22,831 nucleotides of DNA from a virus. Shown here piece after piece: positions 1 through 22,343 of the stretch. The DNA lies in IMG/VR virus record IMGVR_UViG_3300047560_000213, positions 1 through 22,831 of that record; one strand, written 5' to 3'. Position 1 is the stretch's first letter. Each line of letters starts with the position of its first letter. The notes beneath the pieces were generated by a model. It made no database searches. It was given only the letters and a program-made list of their open reading frames with translations, and was not told the origin of the DNA. The position numbers and the translations under genes were made by a program.

Positions 1-143
1 CTATCTAACGCTATGTTTTGTTCTAATATAGATTCAGACTCCACTGTAAACTGAACATCTACATGATAGACATTCATTACAAACTCAGTTTCTATATATA
101 CACCTGAAACAAATTGGAAGTCTCTTTGTATTCTTGCTGTCAT
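1..143 (-). CDS. Partial phage protein, N-terminus only (47 residues visible)
   Basis: The reading frame starts at ATG 143-141 and runs off the left edge of the window. The visible N-terminus begins MTARIQRDFQFVSGVYIETE. Its ATG overlaps the TGA stop of the preceding 80-residue gene (ATGA overlap), so the two are probably translationally coupled. It lies downstream of the tail-appendage cluster, and a structural or baseplate-associated role is possible from position alone. I do not recognise the family from this fragment, and no catalytic motif is visible. Confidence 0.75.
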   Translation of the reverse strand, partial: MTARIQRDFQFVSGVYIETEFVMNVYHVDVQFTVESESILEQNIALD

Positions 144-379
144 TGTTTTTCTTTATTAGAGATGTTGATTTTATTACTTAAATTTTGTTTCTTATATACT
201 TCGTCTATTCTCTTAGCATATTCAGTTTTATAACTTTCTATGACCATATGCAGTTGTTGGATCATTGGAGAGTTCTGTGTACGATACACAAAGTTAAGTT
301 TTTTGGTTAAGTCATTGATGGTGCTTTGTAACTCATCTAATGACTTGTTGCTTAAATCATTAATAAATGGATGTTGCAT
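140..379 (-). CDS. Small conserved phage protein, 79 residues, unknown function
   Basis: The product is a small, charged, mostly helical protein beginning MQHPFINDLSNKSLDELQST, with a likely coiled-coil middle and a lysine-rich C-terminus. It resembles small proteins I recall from aquatic T4-like phages that share an HPF...L..KS.DE pattern, but no function is known to me. I chose ATG 379 over the in-frame TTG one codon upstream because the HPF start looks family-typical. There is no good Shine-Dalgarno sequence. Instead an exact TATAAATA late-promoter core ends four bases before the ATG, which suggests a leaderless or near-leaderless late message. The stop overlaps the start of the next gene. 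Confidence 0.7.
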   Translation of the reverse strand: MQHPFINDLSNKSLDELQSTINDLTKKLNFVYRTQNSPMIQQLHMVIESYKTEYAKRIDEVYKKQNLSNKINISNKEKQ

Positions 380-383
380 CAAT

Positions 384-391
384 TATTTATA
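384..391 (-). promoter_or_regulatory. T4-type late promoter core TATAAATA
   Basis: The minus strand reads TATAAATA, the exact T4 late-promoter consensus, followed by ATTG and then the ATG of the 79-residue gene. With T4 geometry (core at -13 to -6) transcription would start within about one base of that ATG. The motif lies in the 32-base gap between two genes. Confidence 0.6.
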
Positions 392-1244: not shown

Positions 1245-1252
1245 GTATTTAG
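1245..1252 (-). promoter_or_regulatory. Late-promoter-like motif CTAAATAC
   Basis: The minus strand reads CTAAATAC, with the TAA doubling as the stop codon of the 723-residue gene (stop at 1251-1249). The ATG of the 271-residue gene follows 17 bases after the motif. Spacing matches the other late motifs in this window. Confidence 0.6.
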
Positions 1253-8734: not shown

Positions 8735-8742
8735 GTATTTAT
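8735..8742 (-). promoter_or_regulatory. Late-promoter-like motif ATAAATAC before the fibre gene
   Basis: The minus strand reads GATAAATAC, 19 bases before the ATG of the 1554-residue fibre gene. A second related core, CTAAATAA, lies at 8754-8747 just upstream. Both sit immediately downstream of the intrinsic terminator at 8767-8795, so the fibre gene appears to begin a new transcription unit. Confidence 0.65.
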
Positions 8743-8766
8743 CGTTTTATTTAGGTTACACTATCC

Positions 8767-11983: not shown

Positions 11984-11991
11984 GTATTTAT
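11984..11991 (-). promoter_or_regulatory. Late-promoter-like motif ATAAATAC
   Basis: The minus strand reads TTGATAAATAC, where TGA is the gp16 stop. The next ATG (11965) follows after 18 bases. Motif, spacing and overlap with a stop codon match the site at 12498-12505. Confidence 0.6.
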
Positions 11992-12497: not shown

Positions 12498-12505
12498 GTA
12501 TTTAT
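12498..12505 (-). promoter_or_regulatory. Late-promoter-like motif ATAAATAC before gp16
   Basis: The minus strand reads AGTAATAAATAC, where the first TAA is the gp4 stop. ATG 12479 of gp16 follows after 18 bases. Confidence 0.6.
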
Positions 12506-15171: not shown

Positions 15172-15179
15172 TTATTTAT
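15172..15179 (-). promoter_or_regulatory. Late-promoter-like motif ATAAATAA before gp19
   Basis: The minus strand reads GATAAATAA, 20 bases before the gp19 ATG and just past the stem-loop that follows gp18. Confidence 0.55.
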
Positions 15180-15214: not shown

Positions 15215-18200
15215 TTACTTAAGGCTTGCTATTTCTCCGGTGTTCAATACACGAACTGGGATATAGATAAATTCAGCAGCCTTGACTGGTTCGATAGCAA
15301 CATCAATCCAGAGTTCATTTCTATCAATACGGGCTGGTGTGTTGTTAGAATCATCACAAACCACTAGATAGTCATATAAACCACGTTTAGCAACTAAGTC
15401 AATAAACAATGATTGTACAACACCTTGAATCTGGCTACGTGTTAACGCATCGTTTGGTTCGAATACGAATGGACGAGCCAAAATCTGTAACTGATAACGA
15501 ATATAAGCTACTAGTCGTGCTACGTTGATACGATCCAATGCACTTTGAGTATCCTTAACGTTCTTGTTACCATAATTCAATAGACCAATACCAGTGAAGT
15601 ATGCCAATGGGTTAATCTGATTAGTATACAATACATCACGAATTGCCATACGGTTCTTAATTACCACAAACTCACCTGTAGCAGCATCTAAGTATCCAAT
15701 GTTTGTAGCATTGTCAATAGTACCACGGCGTGTGCCTGCTGGTGCTAACCAAGGATAAGCAATTGTGTCATTACGTAAGAATGTACGCAACATCATATGA
15801 CTTGCAGGAACAACAACTGCTGCACCTGTTAAGTCTGTTGTTATACCACTTGGGTAGAAAAGACCCATATACTCATTACGTGTTACTAGACCATCTTCAC
15901 CTGTGCTTATTGCACCTGCTTGGTTTGTAGCCCAGTTGATTAAGTCTGTAGCTTGATCTGGTAAACGTAATGGTGTATCACCGATAATATAAGCTGTATT
16001 GTTACGATTATTATTCAATGTAACCATATCAGGTTGTAGTTCAGGATAGTTAGGGCAAGAAATTAAGTTAAAGAATGTATCTTCTTCTAAAATGCTTTGG
16101 TTAGTACCAATAGCCGCCTTCAATGCTTGAACAACCATATTACGTTGTGCCTTACGACCCATGTAAGCAGCTCCATTTGATTGTAGGCCACTAGCACTTA
16201 CCCATGTATATGAGTTAGTTGGTAGATCCATATCTGGATACTTAGCAGCAGTAAAATAATTTGTTGTAAATTGTTTTACATTATATCCACTGCGTCTTGT
16301 GTTGAATAACAACATACCTTGTGGGAACAATGTTGGATCAGGAGCATCTAAATCTATATAATTAGTGGTCAACAACGTTGAGATAGGTACGATTGGATCG
16401 TTAACTGGATTCACAGTTCCATTGTTTGCCCAACGTGCGTCAGCAAATAGAATACCATTCTGACTTGTTTGGTCTGTATTGTCAATTGCTACCCATTGAT
16501 CTAATGAGTCAACCATTTGCCAACGTGATAATTTAGGATAGTTCTCTAAATCAGATGTATCTAACCATAAATCACCATATTGTAATGGATCACCGCTAGA
16601 TTGTTCTGTTGGTGCTGTTGTGCTAACAATAGGACCATTTGGATCTGTTGTGTTTGATCCGTCGATTGGGTGACCGTTTTGGTCATAATTGACATTACCA
16701 TAACCATACCATTCGCCGTCCTTGTTAATCATAATATCAACTTGACTTGCTGTGCTATAGAACCACTTGGTTCCATTTAATGGATTTGTTACTGGTGCAC
16801 CTTCGTTTGCGATATATTCTAGCTTAGACCAGTTACCTAACCATACAAAATAATTTTGTTTTGGTGTTCCAGAAACATACGTAAAGCTAGCTACTGGTGA
16901 GGGTACCAATGATTCATCATTCATTACTCGTATTGTAACGTCATTAGTATTATCAACTCCGCCTATGTCAGCTCCGGAGAATGTAATTGTATCTCCCAAT
17001 ATGTACCCTGAGCCACCATTAATAACTTCAATTTCATAGTAGGTTCCGAAGTTAGTAATACTGTATGTGCCACCTGAACCCGCTAATGAATTTACTGATT
17101 TTGGTGAAACCGCAGAATTTTTGTAAACTGCAAGACTACCATAACTTACATTGGCGCCCCCTTGGCTGAATCCAAGTTCTGAGAGTAATCCATTACTTTG
17201 ACCTGTAGTGTCTATGTCACTCAATAGAATAATTCCACCATTATTATGTGTAATTTGTACTGCGTTATTGACAGAGACAGAAGCTGTTGTATCGGCGATG
17301 TTAGCTGATAACCATGCACTAACAAACGCGGTTGCTGTTGTGCCAGTTGTAGTAAGAACATATGTACTTACTGATCCATCAGAGTTGCTAACTACGATTG
17401 TTAAATCCAATCCTGATGTAATACTAGGACTTGTTACTGTACCAGTTGTTGTTACTGAACCGGTGCTAGTTTTTTCCCATAATGTCAAGAATTCGTATGG
17501 AATTGGATCAAACTGAGTAGCGTATGTTCCTTGTTGATAAGTTGCGATAACTGTTCCTGCAGGAATAGATTTTCCTCCATCACTGCTTAAATCACCGATA
17601 GCGGCAGCAACTGAAGTATACTTACCTACTACTAAACTTTTCCAAGTATCAGTTGAGGTAATATAACGTGATACGTTCAAGTCCATACCACTTCCAGCAA
17701 TGCTAGTCTTTATCCATACACTACCTGTTGGGTGAGGATATGATTGACCAGCTGTCCATAGTGGCATATTAGCAGAAGTACCGTATGAGGTATCTGGGCA
17801 ATAGAATGTACTAGGAGAAGTTGTTGCCAATCCTAAATCTTGCAATGGTGTACCTGAAACGTTAGATAAGGTAATGTTCTTGTTTAAGCCTGGCTCTCCG
17901 TATGAAATAGCCAATCTACCATCAATTGTTCTAGCAAATAGATATGAGACTCCCAATGCATTGATTTTATTTGCAAGAGTCTCAGTAGTATCGCCAGTTA
18001 CAATAGGAACTGTTAGATAAAATGAGCTACCGACCGTGATACTGAAATAATCACCATCGTTTAAAGTAGGATTACCGTTTGATCCAATTACGAATGGTAC
18101 AGCTTTTTTCCAATCAGAAGAACCTAATACTACCCATTCATTGTTGAAGTTTTTATAGAAGTATGTTGCTCTAGCGAAATCACCCACTAAATTTTCTGTA

Positions 18201-18766
18201 GGGATTACGGCGTAACTACCGATATTGCCTATAGATTGAACTGGATAGTTATCTTCAATGTACTCTGAATCTACTATCACAGTAGGTGTCTTTTGTGTGA
18301 ACTTACCGGTATCAGCATTGAATTCATAGATACCCCATGTAGAATTAGTTGTATCTAACCAATAAGTACCGTCTGCTGGGTTTCCTGTAGGACGTGATAA
18401 TGTACCTACTAACTGTCCTAAGTCGATATCTGCACGTAAAACATAAGCACGATTAGTAGCACCTAATAATGAATATGTTGCTAATAAGCCATATTCATTT
18501 AGTTCGTAACCTTGAATTGGTGTACCGTTCGTTGTCTTATAGAAGAATGGAGTACCAAACAAGTTCACTAGGTCACGCTGACTTGTAACTTGATATAATT
18601 TATTTGCGTTTGCGGCTGTTGTTGCTGCTGCAACTCCTGTACCTGCTGCATTAGCTTTATTCTCTGCTGTTGCTAACAAGATTAAGGGAACTGAATTTGA
18701 GGCAGCAGGAAGATACTGACTTTGGTCAATGATTGTAACTTCTACGCCTGGTGATACTAGTGCCAT
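15215..18766 (-). CDS. 18: Tail sheath protein gp18, enlarged (1183 residues)
   Basis: This is the contractile tail sheath subunit. The conserved N-terminus (MALVSPGVEVTIIDQSQYLP) and a C-terminal core from about 800 on match the T4 gp18 family: FPQGMLLFNTRRSGYNVKQF (814-833), AYMGRKAQRNMVVQALKAAI (867-886), NNRNNTAYIIGD, YPWLAPAGTRRGTIDN (1004-1019), INPLAYFTGIGLLNYGNKNV and LNTGEIASL at the end. T4 gp18 is 659 residues. The extra roughly 500 residues lie between about 120 and 800 as surface insertions containing four GxxW(L/I/F)..(T/S) units (132, 347, 665 and 731) and other beta modules. The start has AAGGAA six bases upstream. It begins the tail block after an intergenic region shared with the divergent zinc-finger gene. 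Confidence 0.95.
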   Translation of the reverse strand: MALVSPGVEVTIIDQSQYLPAASNSVPLILLATAENKANAAGTGVAAATTAANANKLYQVTSQRDLVNLFGTPFFYKTTNGTPIQGYELNEYGLLATYSLLGATNRAYVLRADIDLGQLVGTLSRPTGNPADGTYWLDTTNSTWGIYEFNADTGKFTQKTPTVIVDSEYIEDNYPVQSIGNIGSYAVIPTENLVGDFARATYFYKNFNNEWVVLGSSDWKKAVPFVIGSNGNPTLNDGDYFSITVGSSFYLTVPIVTGDTTETLANKINALGVSYLFARTIDGRLAISYGEPGLNKNITLSNVSGTPLQDLGLATTSPSTFYCPDTSYGTSANMPLWTAGQSYPHPTGSVWIKTSIAGSGMDLNVSRYITSTDTWKSLVVGKYTSVAAAIGDLSSDGGKSIPAGTVIATYQQGTYATQFDPIPYEFLTLWEKTSTGSVTTTGTVTSPSITSGLDLTIVVSNSDGSVSTYVLTTTGTTATAFVSAWLSANIADTTASVSVNNAVQITHNNGGIILLSDIDTTGQSNGLLSELGFSQGGANVSYGSLAVYKNSAVSPKSVNSLAGSGGTYSITNFGTYYEIEVINGGSGYILGDTITFSGADIGGVDNTNDVTIRVMNDESLVPSPVASFTYVSGTPKQNYFVWLGNWSKLEYIANEGAPVTNPLNGTKWFYSTASQVDIMINKDGEWYGYGNVNYDQNGHPIDGSNTTDPNGPIVSTTAPTEQSSGDPLQYGDLWLDTSDLENYPKLSRWQMVDSLDQWVAIDNTDQTSQNGILFADARWANNGTVNPVNDPIVPISTLLTTNYIDLDAPDPTLFPQGMLLFNTRRSGYNVKQFTTNYFTAAKYPDMDLPTNSYTWVSASGLQSNGAAYMGRKAQRNMVVQALKAAIGTNQSILEEDTFFNLISCPNYPELQPDMVTLNNNRNNTAYIIGDTPLRLPDQATDLINWATNQAGAISTGEDGLVTRNEYMGLFYPSGITTDLTGAAVVVPASHMMLRTFLRNDTIAYPWLAPAGTRRGTIDNATNIGYLDAATGEFVVIKNRMAIRDVLYTNQINPLAYFTGIGLLNYGNKNVKDTQSALDRINVARLVAYIRYQLQILARPFVFEPNDALTRSQIQGVVQSLFIDLVAKRGLYDYLVVCDDSNNTPARIDRNELWIDVAIEPVKAAEFIYIPVRVLNTGEIASLK
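16367..18409 (-). repeat. Internal repeat-rich insertion in gp18
   Basis: Within the sheath insertion, four short units share G(T/S/D).W(L/I/F).(T/S)(T/S), followed after 15-30 residues by another tryptophan or aromatic residue: about residues 132-160, 347-378, 664-690 and 730-760. Two longer modules (about 233-313 and 447-537) also look alike, each a beta strand, a T.(T/A)..(F/L) helix and an ending L..LG(L/F). A GGSGY..GDTI motif lies at 584-594. Divergence is high, so boundaries are approximate. Confidence 0.55.
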
Positions 18767-18817
18767 GTTAAATTTCCTTTATGTTATGATTATGAGGGTT
18801 AACGCCCTAACGTACAT

Positions 18818-18825
18818 ATATTTAG
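18818..18825 (-). promoter_or_regulatory. Possible late promoter CTAAATAT for gp18
   Basis: The minus strand reads GCTAAATATATG, 51 bases before the gp18 ATG. It is the only TAAATA-like sequence in the gp18 leader and is further from the start than at other genes, giving a leader of about 45 bases. Confidence 0.4.
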
Positions 18826-18855
18826 CGAAAATATTAAAAAATACCCAATTAGCGT

Positions 18856-18867
18856 ACCTTCGAAGGT
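18856..18867. promoter_or_regulatory. 12-bp perfect palindrome ACCTTCGAAGGT, possible operator
   Basis: The sequence is a perfect two-fold palindrome and directly abuts the CTAAATAC motif of the zinc-finger gene. It lies in the divergent region between that gene and gp18. The right half (AAGGT) could also serve as a ribosome-binding site 11 bases before ATG 18879 on a longer message. A protein-binding role is inferred only from symmetry and position. Confidence 0.4.
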
Positions 18868-18875
18868 CTAAATAC
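18868..18875 (+). promoter_or_regulatory. Late-promoter-like motif CTAAATAC before the zinc-finger gene
   Basis: The plus strand reads TCTAAATACGTTATG. Aligned to TATAAATA, the core is followed by exactly four bases and then ATG, the same geometry as at 384-391. Transcription starting six bases after the core would begin within about one base of the start codon. Confidence 0.55.
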
Positions 18876-18878
18876 GTT

Positions 18879-19223
18879 ATGAGACCTATCTGCAAAACTT
18901 GCAACAAAAACTTTTGTGCTGTGAATTACAAGCGCGGTGAGGTAACTCATTACCGAAGTTCATGTGATGAATGCGGTCGTAAAAAGAACAAGAAAAAACC
19001 TAGAGTTCCTAGTTGGCAGAAGTCTGGGTACAAGAAAAAAGCCACATGTGATTTATGTGGCTTTAAAAGTATCTACCCATCTCAAACTACAGTGTTTCAC
19101 ATAGATGGGAATTTAGAAAATTCAATTTTTACTAATCTCAGGACCATATGCCTCAACTGTGTTGAAGTCATAAAACGCAAAGAAGTCACTTGGCGTAGGG
19201 GTGACTTAGAGGTTGATAATTAA
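18879..19223 (+). CDS. Small zinc-finger / degenerate HNH-like protein, 114 residues
   Basis: The protein has two N-terminal CxxC pairs (C5/C8 and C29/C32), a CDLCGF knuckle (C57/C60) and then an HNH-like block, FHIDGNLENS followed by NLRTICLNCVEVI. In active HNH nucleases the last CxxC is normally followed by histidine; here it is valine, so catalysis is doubtful. I recall close relatives (RP.CK.C..., HYRS.CD.C) as a conserved small family in aquatic T4-like phages. I chose ATG 18879 because this gives the family-like MRPICKTC start and excludes an upstream stretch that would run into gp18. It is the lone plus-strand gene amid minus-strand genes, and its 3' end overlaps gp1 by 18 bases. Nucleic-acid binding is likely; its role is unknown. 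Confidence 0.8.
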   Translation: MRPICKTCNKNFCAVNYKRGEVTHYRSSCDECGRKKNKKKPRVPSWQKSGYKKKATCDLCGFKSIYPSQTTVFHIDGNLENSIFTNLRTICLNCVEVIKRKEVTWRRGDLEVDN

Positions 19224-20668: not shown

Positions 20669-20693
20669 CTCCAGATAATGTATTTATCTGGAG
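20669..20693 (-). promoter_or_regulatory. Hairpin over the gp13 ribosome-binding site, with embedded late motif
   Basis: The arms CTCCAGATAA (20669-20678) and TTATCTGGAG (20684-20693) pair perfectly over ten bases with a five-base loop. On the minus-strand message the 3' arm ends in GGAG, then six bases, then ATG 20662. The late-type motif ATAAATAC (20687-20680) spans the end of the 5' arm and the loop. A message starting downstream of that motif would lose the 5' arm and leave GGAG free. Confidence 0.75.
20680..20687 (-). promoter_or_regulatory. Late-promoter-like motif ATAAATAC before gp13
   Basis: The minus strand reads GATAAATAC, 17 bases before the gp13 ATG, the same spacing as at other structural genes. 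It sits inside the 20669-20693 hairpin, so promoter and RNA structure share sequence. Confidence 0.65.
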
Positions 20694-22295: not shown

Positions 22296-22343
22296 GTTTC
22301 GTAGGTAATACTTTTGTAATAAATACTAAGTAAACGGATTACA
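22276..22343. repeat. Inverted repeat TGTAATCC / GGATTACA in the divergent region
   Basis: TGTAATCC lies at 22276-22283, inside the spacer of the minus-strand sigma-70 promoter. Its exact complement GGATTACA lies at 22336-22343, two bases before the gp14 ATG. The 52-base separation argues against a stable hairpin. It could be a pair of binding sites, or chance. Confidence 0.35.
22319..22326 (+). promoter_or_regulatory. Late-promoter-like motif ATAAATAC before gp14
   Basis: The plus strand reads TAATAAATACTAAG, 19 bases before the gp14 ATG. It points away from the sigma-70 promoter in the same 104-base intergenic region, giving one early and one late promoter back to back. Confidence 0.65.

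Follow-up and report, generated by a model that had tools for sequence, protein, structure and literature searches.

A class of late genes in which a T4-type late promoter is fused to the start codon, so that the messages would be leaderless or near-leaderless, is very probably present in the phage lineage analysed here. The window, meaning the whole stretch of DNA that was analysed, is one virus record of 22,831 bases, carrying mostly T4-type structural genes on the minus strand, amongst which those for tail sheath, tail tube, head closure and endolysin were identified. The closest named phages by tail sheath were Sinorhizobium phage Phosso, Agrobacterium phage Atu_ph07 and Pseudomonas phages such as PA5oct, with 46-48% identity across 57-59% of the protein.

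Late promoter cores of the window

The first-pass annotation had reported an exact late promoter core, followed by four bases and ATG and lacking a Shine-Dalgarno (SD) sequence, at a gene of 79 residues. Both observations were confirmed: TATAAATA occupies positions 391-384 of the minus strand and is followed by ATTG and by the ATG at 379-377, and no SD tetramer stands at the usual distance, the nearest AGG being 15-17 nt upstream of the ATG and beyond the core. A second site of this kind, TAAATACGTTATG at 18869-18881 (plus strand), opens a 114-residue zinc-finger gene, the upstream sequence of which reads TCTAAATA-CGTT-ATG (18867-18881, plus strand). The relevant features are given below, with N denoting the number of bases between TAAATA and ATG.

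384..391, minus: T4-type late promoter core TATAAATA of the 79-residue gene; TAAATA at N4-6 in 25 of 29 sequences
377..379, minus: ATG start codon, its A being base 5 past the core and the predicted +1 (base preference; MQHPFI conservation)
140..379, minus: 79-residue gene, predicted two-helix hairpin
18869..18874, plus: core TAAATA of the zinc-finger/HNH-like gene, N4 before ATG; N4-6 in 80 of 80 related loci
18879..19223, plus: 114-residue zinc-finger/HNH-like gene, between two minus-strand genes
18856..18867, unstranded: perfect palindrome ACCTTCGAAGGT, candidate operator upstream of the zinc-finger promoter
18819..18824, minus: gp18 late promoter core, N52; divergent leadered counterpart, SD AAGGA
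1246..1251, minus: leadered late core, N18, 271-aa gene
8736..8741, minus: leadered late core, N20, 1554-aa gene; second core at 8748-8753, N32
11985..11990, minus: leadered late core, N19, 200-aa gene
12499..12504, minus: leadered late core, N19, ATG giving 162 aa
13321..13326, minus: leadered late core, N16, 120-aa gene
15173..15178, minus: leadered late core, N21, 209-aa tail tube gene, SD AGGAGA
20681..20686, minus: leadered late core, N18, 253-aa gene, SD GGAGA
22320..22325, plus: leadered late core, N20, ORF from 22346 running off the window

Taken alone, the window is not significant, since its two occurrences of TAAATA-N4-ATG compare with 0.83 expected and two or more were reached in 19 of 100 shuffles. 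Exact TATAAATA occurs once (chance expectation 3.45), and TAAATA itself is scarcer than expected, with 19 copies versus 37. Twelve of these 19 copies precede an ORF start, namely those of eight genes at N16-21 (the 1,554-aa gene having its extra copy at N32), of gp18 at N52 and of the two genes at N4.

The ORF at 140-379 (minus strand) encodes 79 aa from its ATG, or 80 aa from an in-frame TTG immediately before it. A later start codon was rejected on the grounds that the MQHPFI N-terminus is identical in all 17 aligned 79-aa proteins. Use of the protein as a query retrieved 28 related viral loci, and TAAATA was located at N4-6 in 25 of the resulting 29 sequences (15 of 19 distinct upstreams, judged by eye). 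In the four exceptions (L008, L018, L021 and L023) the gene begins 1-4 nt past the upstream stop codon, which suggests that these loci use translational coupling instead of a TAAATA of their own. A search of the minus strand from 1189 to 379 found no sigma-70 promoter for the gene. The protein, modelled as a two-helix hairpin with a mean pLDDT of 86, belongs to no Pfam or PHROG family, gave no tblastn hit at 1e-3 amongst 50,697 phage records and fell short of the BFVD threshold of E <= 0.001, its best match there being an uncharacterised one at 0.0039.

Spacing, predicted RNA start and inheritance across the lineage

The first-pass annotation had also proposed a genome-wide count of spacings, which was run over eight pooled records of approximately 1.0 Mb in total, comprising the window and the whole or near-whole records for seven of the 28 loci. 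TAAATA was counted before any ATG opening at least 50 codons, and 14 permuted hexamers, which gave flat distributions, served as controls. The TAAATA-to-ATG spacing is two-peaked, with 110 cases found versus 20.4 expected at N4-7 and 170 versus 46 at N16-24, and without an excess between the peaks (N8-15: 27 found, 34 expected). An early histogram built from the window and 18 loci was excluded as evidence because every locus had been fetched via the 79-aa gene. A simple ATG-ORF caller underlies all counts; it yielded 1,123 genes, of which 105 fell into a short class (N3-7) and 159 into a long class (N15-26). When one gene per family was counted, 54 families were represented at N4-7, the empty middle of that count being set by the class limits.

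In the short genes, the promoter box stands where an SD would be. SD tetramers between -20 and -4 were scored in 3.8% of short genes (n=105), 61.6% of long genes (n=159) and 45% of genes without TAAATA (n=815), although the low score of the short genes is partly built in, given that the core occupies part of that stretch. At the N4-7 position SD-like hexamers take the first twelve places by enrichment, and TAAATA at this distance precedes the first ATG in 94 of the 1,123 genes versus about six (scaled from the N16-24 expectation of 13.6). Amongst all copies of TAAATA, 9.1% lie at N4-7 before a gene; the share was 4.7% for the overlapping permutation ATAAAT and at most 1.4% for the 13 others, including TAATAA (0.6%) and TAAAAT (0.3%). 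The flanking bases of short and long promoters are alike, with A just upstream in 73% and 72%, respectively, and C just downstream in 47% and 49%, which argues that the motif is a promoter and not an RNA signal; the lineage consensus is close to GATAAATAC. A T directly before the ATG was found in 66% of short genes versus 51% of leadered late genes and 27% elsewhere, a preference partly common to both late classes. The base composition after the AUG of short genes revealed no clear overall difference.

With the T4 geometry assumed in the first-pass annotation (+1 six bases past the core), the RNA of the 79-residue gene would begin at 378. The leadered promoters of the lineage itself (n=154, N16 or more) instead favour the fifth base past TAAATA, which is A in 63%; a scan for a purine from that base onwards stops at base five in 107 of the 154 and at base six in 42. 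The +1 of the 79-residue gene is accordingly moved to 379, the A of the AUG, and a leaderless RNA is predicted, though a rule derived from base composition leaves room for a shift of one or two bases in the core-to-+1 distance. Applied to the short genes, the purine rule placed the start on the A of the AUG in 77 of 105 (N4, 33/33; N5, 34/39; N6, 10/15). The other 28 comprise the 16 genes at N7, each with A at base five and a predicted three-base leader, ten genes with a predicted leader of one or two bases, and two genes at N3 that do not fit the rule. The N7 class includes, in three genomes (G003, G018 and G017), the family of an SNase-type nuclease encoded in G003, likewise with a predicted three-base leader, and some members of this family begin, by eye, with a signal-peptide-like stretch.

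The predicted leaderless arrangement is inherited gene by gene. Reciprocal best hits yielded 96 pairs in which both genes were short, versus a mean of 48.7 and a maximum of 80 in 2,000 permutations that shuffled labels within genomes. In 90 of the 96 pairs the alignment starts within the first six residues, and later start codons in the short genes generally were rejected through this N-terminal conservation. A further 51 orthologue pairs mixed short with long genes and 33 mixed short genes with genes lacking a recognised TAAATA, which shows that some genes vary in their class and that the arrangement can switch; the portal gene, for instance, belongs to the short class in two genomes and to the long class in another. 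Families with at least three short and no long members include pairs of 31 to 93% identity.

Two further genes were sampled deeply. For the large terminase gene (the best 80 of at least 600 loci), TAAATA stands at N4-7 in 64 of 68 distinct upstreams; the other four have it at N8, at N12 (counted to a second ATG, the first being at N6) or at N20, or have no core but GAGGA. For the zinc-finger gene (the best 80 of at least 573 confirmed relatives, with 52 distinct upstream sequences), all 80 loci have the core at N4-6 (N4 in 58, N5 in 20 and N6 in two). The sharing of TAAATA-N4-ATG between this gene and the 79-residue gene, as first noted, was thus borne out at 18869-18881, with the qualification that the spacing which recurs family-wide is N4 to N6 and not N4 alone. 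In the terminase and zinc-finger families some proteins are a few residues longer or shorter at the N-terminus, and the core is nearly always four to six bases from the present ATG; the core tracks the ATG of each protein, which indicates that the spacing follows the start codon. The suggestion that these genes form a deliberate class rather than chance matches is supported by the spacing count, the orthologue test and the three deeply sampled genes.

Mechanism, alternatives and related systems

An iterated HMM search from T4 gp55 detected a homologue in G003, G011 and G018, the three largest of the eight lineage records, and that of G003 matches the PHROG 'sigma factor for late transcription' (E=4e-73). 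The window is a fragment without a gp55 gene, so the late sigma was identified in its relatives only. The same procedure with T4 gp45 gave no match in the lineage records or in the searched parts of Atu_ph07 and PA5oct. In the mechanism that we propose, the gp55-like late sigma would bring host RNA polymerase to the GATAAATAC-like box, and the RNA would start with whichever purine comes first amongst the fifth to seventh bases beyond TAAATA. For the short class that purine would be the A of the AUG (N4, N5, N6), or three bases would precede the AUG (N7), such that the mRNA would be leaderless or nearly so and would have no SD, and its translation would follow the 70S pathway for a 5'-AUG. For the long class an identical core, 16-24 bases upstream, would give a short leader usually with an SD. 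The exact +1, the late timing and the 70S initiation are what we infer from this arrangement. As the same phages use SD sequences at other genes, the choice would be made gene by gene and would not reflect an SD-less host.

Some explanations of the short spacing do without a leaderless class. Chance in an AT-rich genome, or the by-production of TAAATA by upstream TAA stops, would account for the two matches in the window, which are within chance (19/100 shuffles), and for the overlap of the core with the upstream stop codon in 13 of the 105 short genes; this explanation was rejected by the family-wide counts and is scarcely credible in view of the 110 cases versus about 20 at N4-7, the 9.1% share of TAAATA versus the controls, the uniformity of single genes (80/80 and 64/68) and the depletion of TAAATA in the window. 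Only a little less improbable is that TAAATA near the AUG acts in the RNA as a translation element, AU-rich and S1-type or initiator-like, instead of as a promoter. It does occupy the position at which other genes have their SD hexamer, but the same extended motif occurs at N15-26 before genes that mostly bear an SD, a T4-type late sigma is encoded by three relatives, and the isolated zinc-finger gene has no sigma-70-like promoter before it (none was found at 18700-18900). It is also unlikely, if less markedly, that the core is a real late promoter whose RNA starts inside the short gene and serves the next one, the short gene being read from read-through RNA. Up to 78 of the 105 short genes come after the end of a same-strand gene (27 do not), hence some translation from read-through RNA is possible, and the four 79-aa loci without TAAATA look coupled, with gaps of 1-4 nt. 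However, the AUG stands sharply at N4-6, which would be needless for an unrelated downstream start, SD tetramers are rare in the short genes, and the zinc-finger gene has both neighbours on the opposite strand in 77 of 80 loci (the other three being at a contig edge or having no called neighbour on one side), meaning that it should depend on its own promoter and that nothing nearby could express it.

A fused promoter giving leaderless messages is therefore the reading retained, and what it serves is less certain. The messages may be leaderless merely because intergenic space has been compressed, without regulatory use, an explanation that we regard as quite possible while leaning against it. 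Called ORFs cover 0.91-0.97 of the lineage records, and several orthologues switch between short and long. Against this, the zinc-finger promoter stands at N4 despite lying within a divergent region of 112 bp, the families with only short members retain the arrangement over pair identities of 31 to 93%, and T4 and syn9, compared on spacing only, do not have the class. Plausibly, the fused promoter doubles as a translational lock that opens late, as RNA read through from earlier promoters would not be translated efficiently; this idea draws on the missing SD and on the precedent of I-TevI (PMC2988022). In its widest form, which we advance tentatively and consider rather unlikely, a large clade of the T4 superfamily would use one late sigma for two late classes, one leadered with an SD and one leaderless. 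The leaderless one (terminase, portal, nuclease) would be a time lock, its genes staying silent on read-through RNA until the late promoter itself fires, and the phage would benefit late in infection from ribosomes that accept 5'-AUG messages.

T4 late transcription is a textbook system, and syn9 has reportedly been the subject of a transcript-mapping study. At N4-7, T4 gave 3 cases versus 4.2 expected, syn9 1 versus 2.5, Atu_ph07 (first 400 kb) 6 versus 4.1, PA5oct (first 280 kb) 5 versus 7.8 and P-SSM2 an ambiguous 7 versus 3.1. The pelagiphage HTVC008M (NC_020484) gave 15 versus 3.9, with 12 at N5. T4, syn9, Atu_ph07 and PA5oct are thus without the class, and HTVC008M has it. HTVC008M resembles the lineage in its N4-7 excess and differs from it in having a single peak (N16-24: 10 found, 9.6 expected). 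Seven of its short genes, located at 5-20 kb, coincide with annotated starts, though annotation is not independent proof, and these seven include the genes of the tape measure, the DNA end protector, the head closure protein and the tube cap. Examples of its N5 genes lie at 16007 and 18916 (minus strand) and at 18943 and 19456 (plus strand), and the phage is in culture on Pelagibacter HTCC1062. Since both the lineage and HTVC008M show the excess, the arrangement appears in at least two groups. Counts of the N5 pattern versus its reverse gave 2 and 2 in KVP40, 0 and 0 in phiM12, 0 and 1 in Cr30, and 3 and 2 in Phosso, where this single pattern count indicates no excess.

The T4 late box is described as lying roughly a helical turn ahead of the start, without a conserved -35 element, and as working with gp55, gp33 and gp45 (PMC2988020). 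The lineage promoters are alike in their TATA-type box, the absence of a conserved -35 and a gp55-family sigma; they differ in the N4-7 peak, as T4 is at chance there and has its box-to-ATG peak at N25-30 (27 found, 7.7 expected). In bacterial leaderless genes, a TA-like box is reported some 10-12 bp ahead of the start codon (PMC3160421), and leaderlessness is similarly deduced from box position and a missing SD, yet the box there resembles the -10 of sigma-70 and precedes cellular genes, whereas here a T4-type late box precedes terminase, portal and other phage genes. Phage transcripts have been said in passing to be often leaderless, in a paper on AR9 (PMC5312081), whose leaders span 26-491 nt and which, in the portions available, mentions no group of leaderless genes linked to a late promoter of T4 type. 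A late promoter directly before an endonuclease gene is known from I-TevI of T4, of which only the late RNA is translatable (PMC2988022); there, an SD is hidden by a hairpin in the earlier RNA, whereas the zinc-finger gene has no SD.

Raised IF3 is said in a review to inhibit some leaderless messages (PMC9031893). Amongst the ten records examined, an IF3 gene (PF00707) was present in Atu_ph07 and Phosso, and none was found in the seven lineage records (possibly incomplete) or in HTVC008M, a distribution over ten records that is suggestive and in line with the wider two-class reading. Phage-encoded bS21 was rejected as a correlate of the class, being present in G017, HTVC008M, Atu_ph07 and Phosso (4 of 10 records).

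In the lineage TAAATA stands at the short or the long spacing before 264 genes, chance matches counted, and 105 of these look leaderless, with the packaging motor amongst them. These phages would offer a natural system in which leaderless translation of essential genes proceeds beside SD-led translation, and recognition of the class would improve start-codon calling in metagenomic phages. The class may also account in part for the difficulty of locating late promoters in certain groups, such as the pelagimyophages, for which prediction is reported as unsuccessful (PMC7029224). No description of a leaderless late class in T4-related phages was found in the literature searched, which was mostly open-access and in part seen as excerpts.

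A candidate operator between divergent late promoters

The mechanical ORF call for the zinc-finger gene gives 164 aa from 18729 (18729-19223, plus strand). Conservation places the true start at 18879, and automatic annotation of this family may hence have the start wrong. Against the Pfam HNH model the protein scored 18.8 bits (E=0.0018), below the cut-off of 21.4, and no HNH domain was assigned. The gene has an AAGG 13-16 nt ahead of its start codon, likewise beyond the core; an SD tetramer was scored in seven of the 52 distinct upstreams, next to or upstream of the core, and was mostly the AAGG of a palindrome.

That palindrome has CCTTNNAAGG as its inner ten bases, which recur in 53 of 53 distinct loci (L166-L245). 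Its centre is CG in 42, TA in eight, CA in two and TG in one, making it symmetric in 50 of the 53, and the outermost pair is complementary in 29. The distance from palindrome to core is 8-11 bp in 46 of the 53 loci and shorter in the window. In its symmetric form the ten-base sequence has a single copy in the window and one to three copies in five of the seven other records, and G008 has a different palindrome, CTCTTTATAAAGAG, in the same place. The palindrome resembles an operator set between a pair of divergent late promoters and may be a binding site of the zinc-finger protein; autoregulation by this route is only a suggestion. The I-TevI protein also represses via an operator that overlaps its late promoter (PMC2988022).

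On the other side of the palindrome, the gp18 message (window 18767-18813, minus strand) has a predicted leader of 43-54 nt over 47 distinct loci, with the SD AAGGA. A small inverted repeat recurs by eye in this leader (AGGG-CGTTAA-CCCT and variants); a conserved hairpin is not claimed, RNAalifold having returned no consensus structure for the 47 leaders. The zinc-finger protein of L166, which is IMG/VR contig 3300043410_000175 of 34,089 bases, is 100% identical to that of the window, and this contig may extend the phage from which the window derives.
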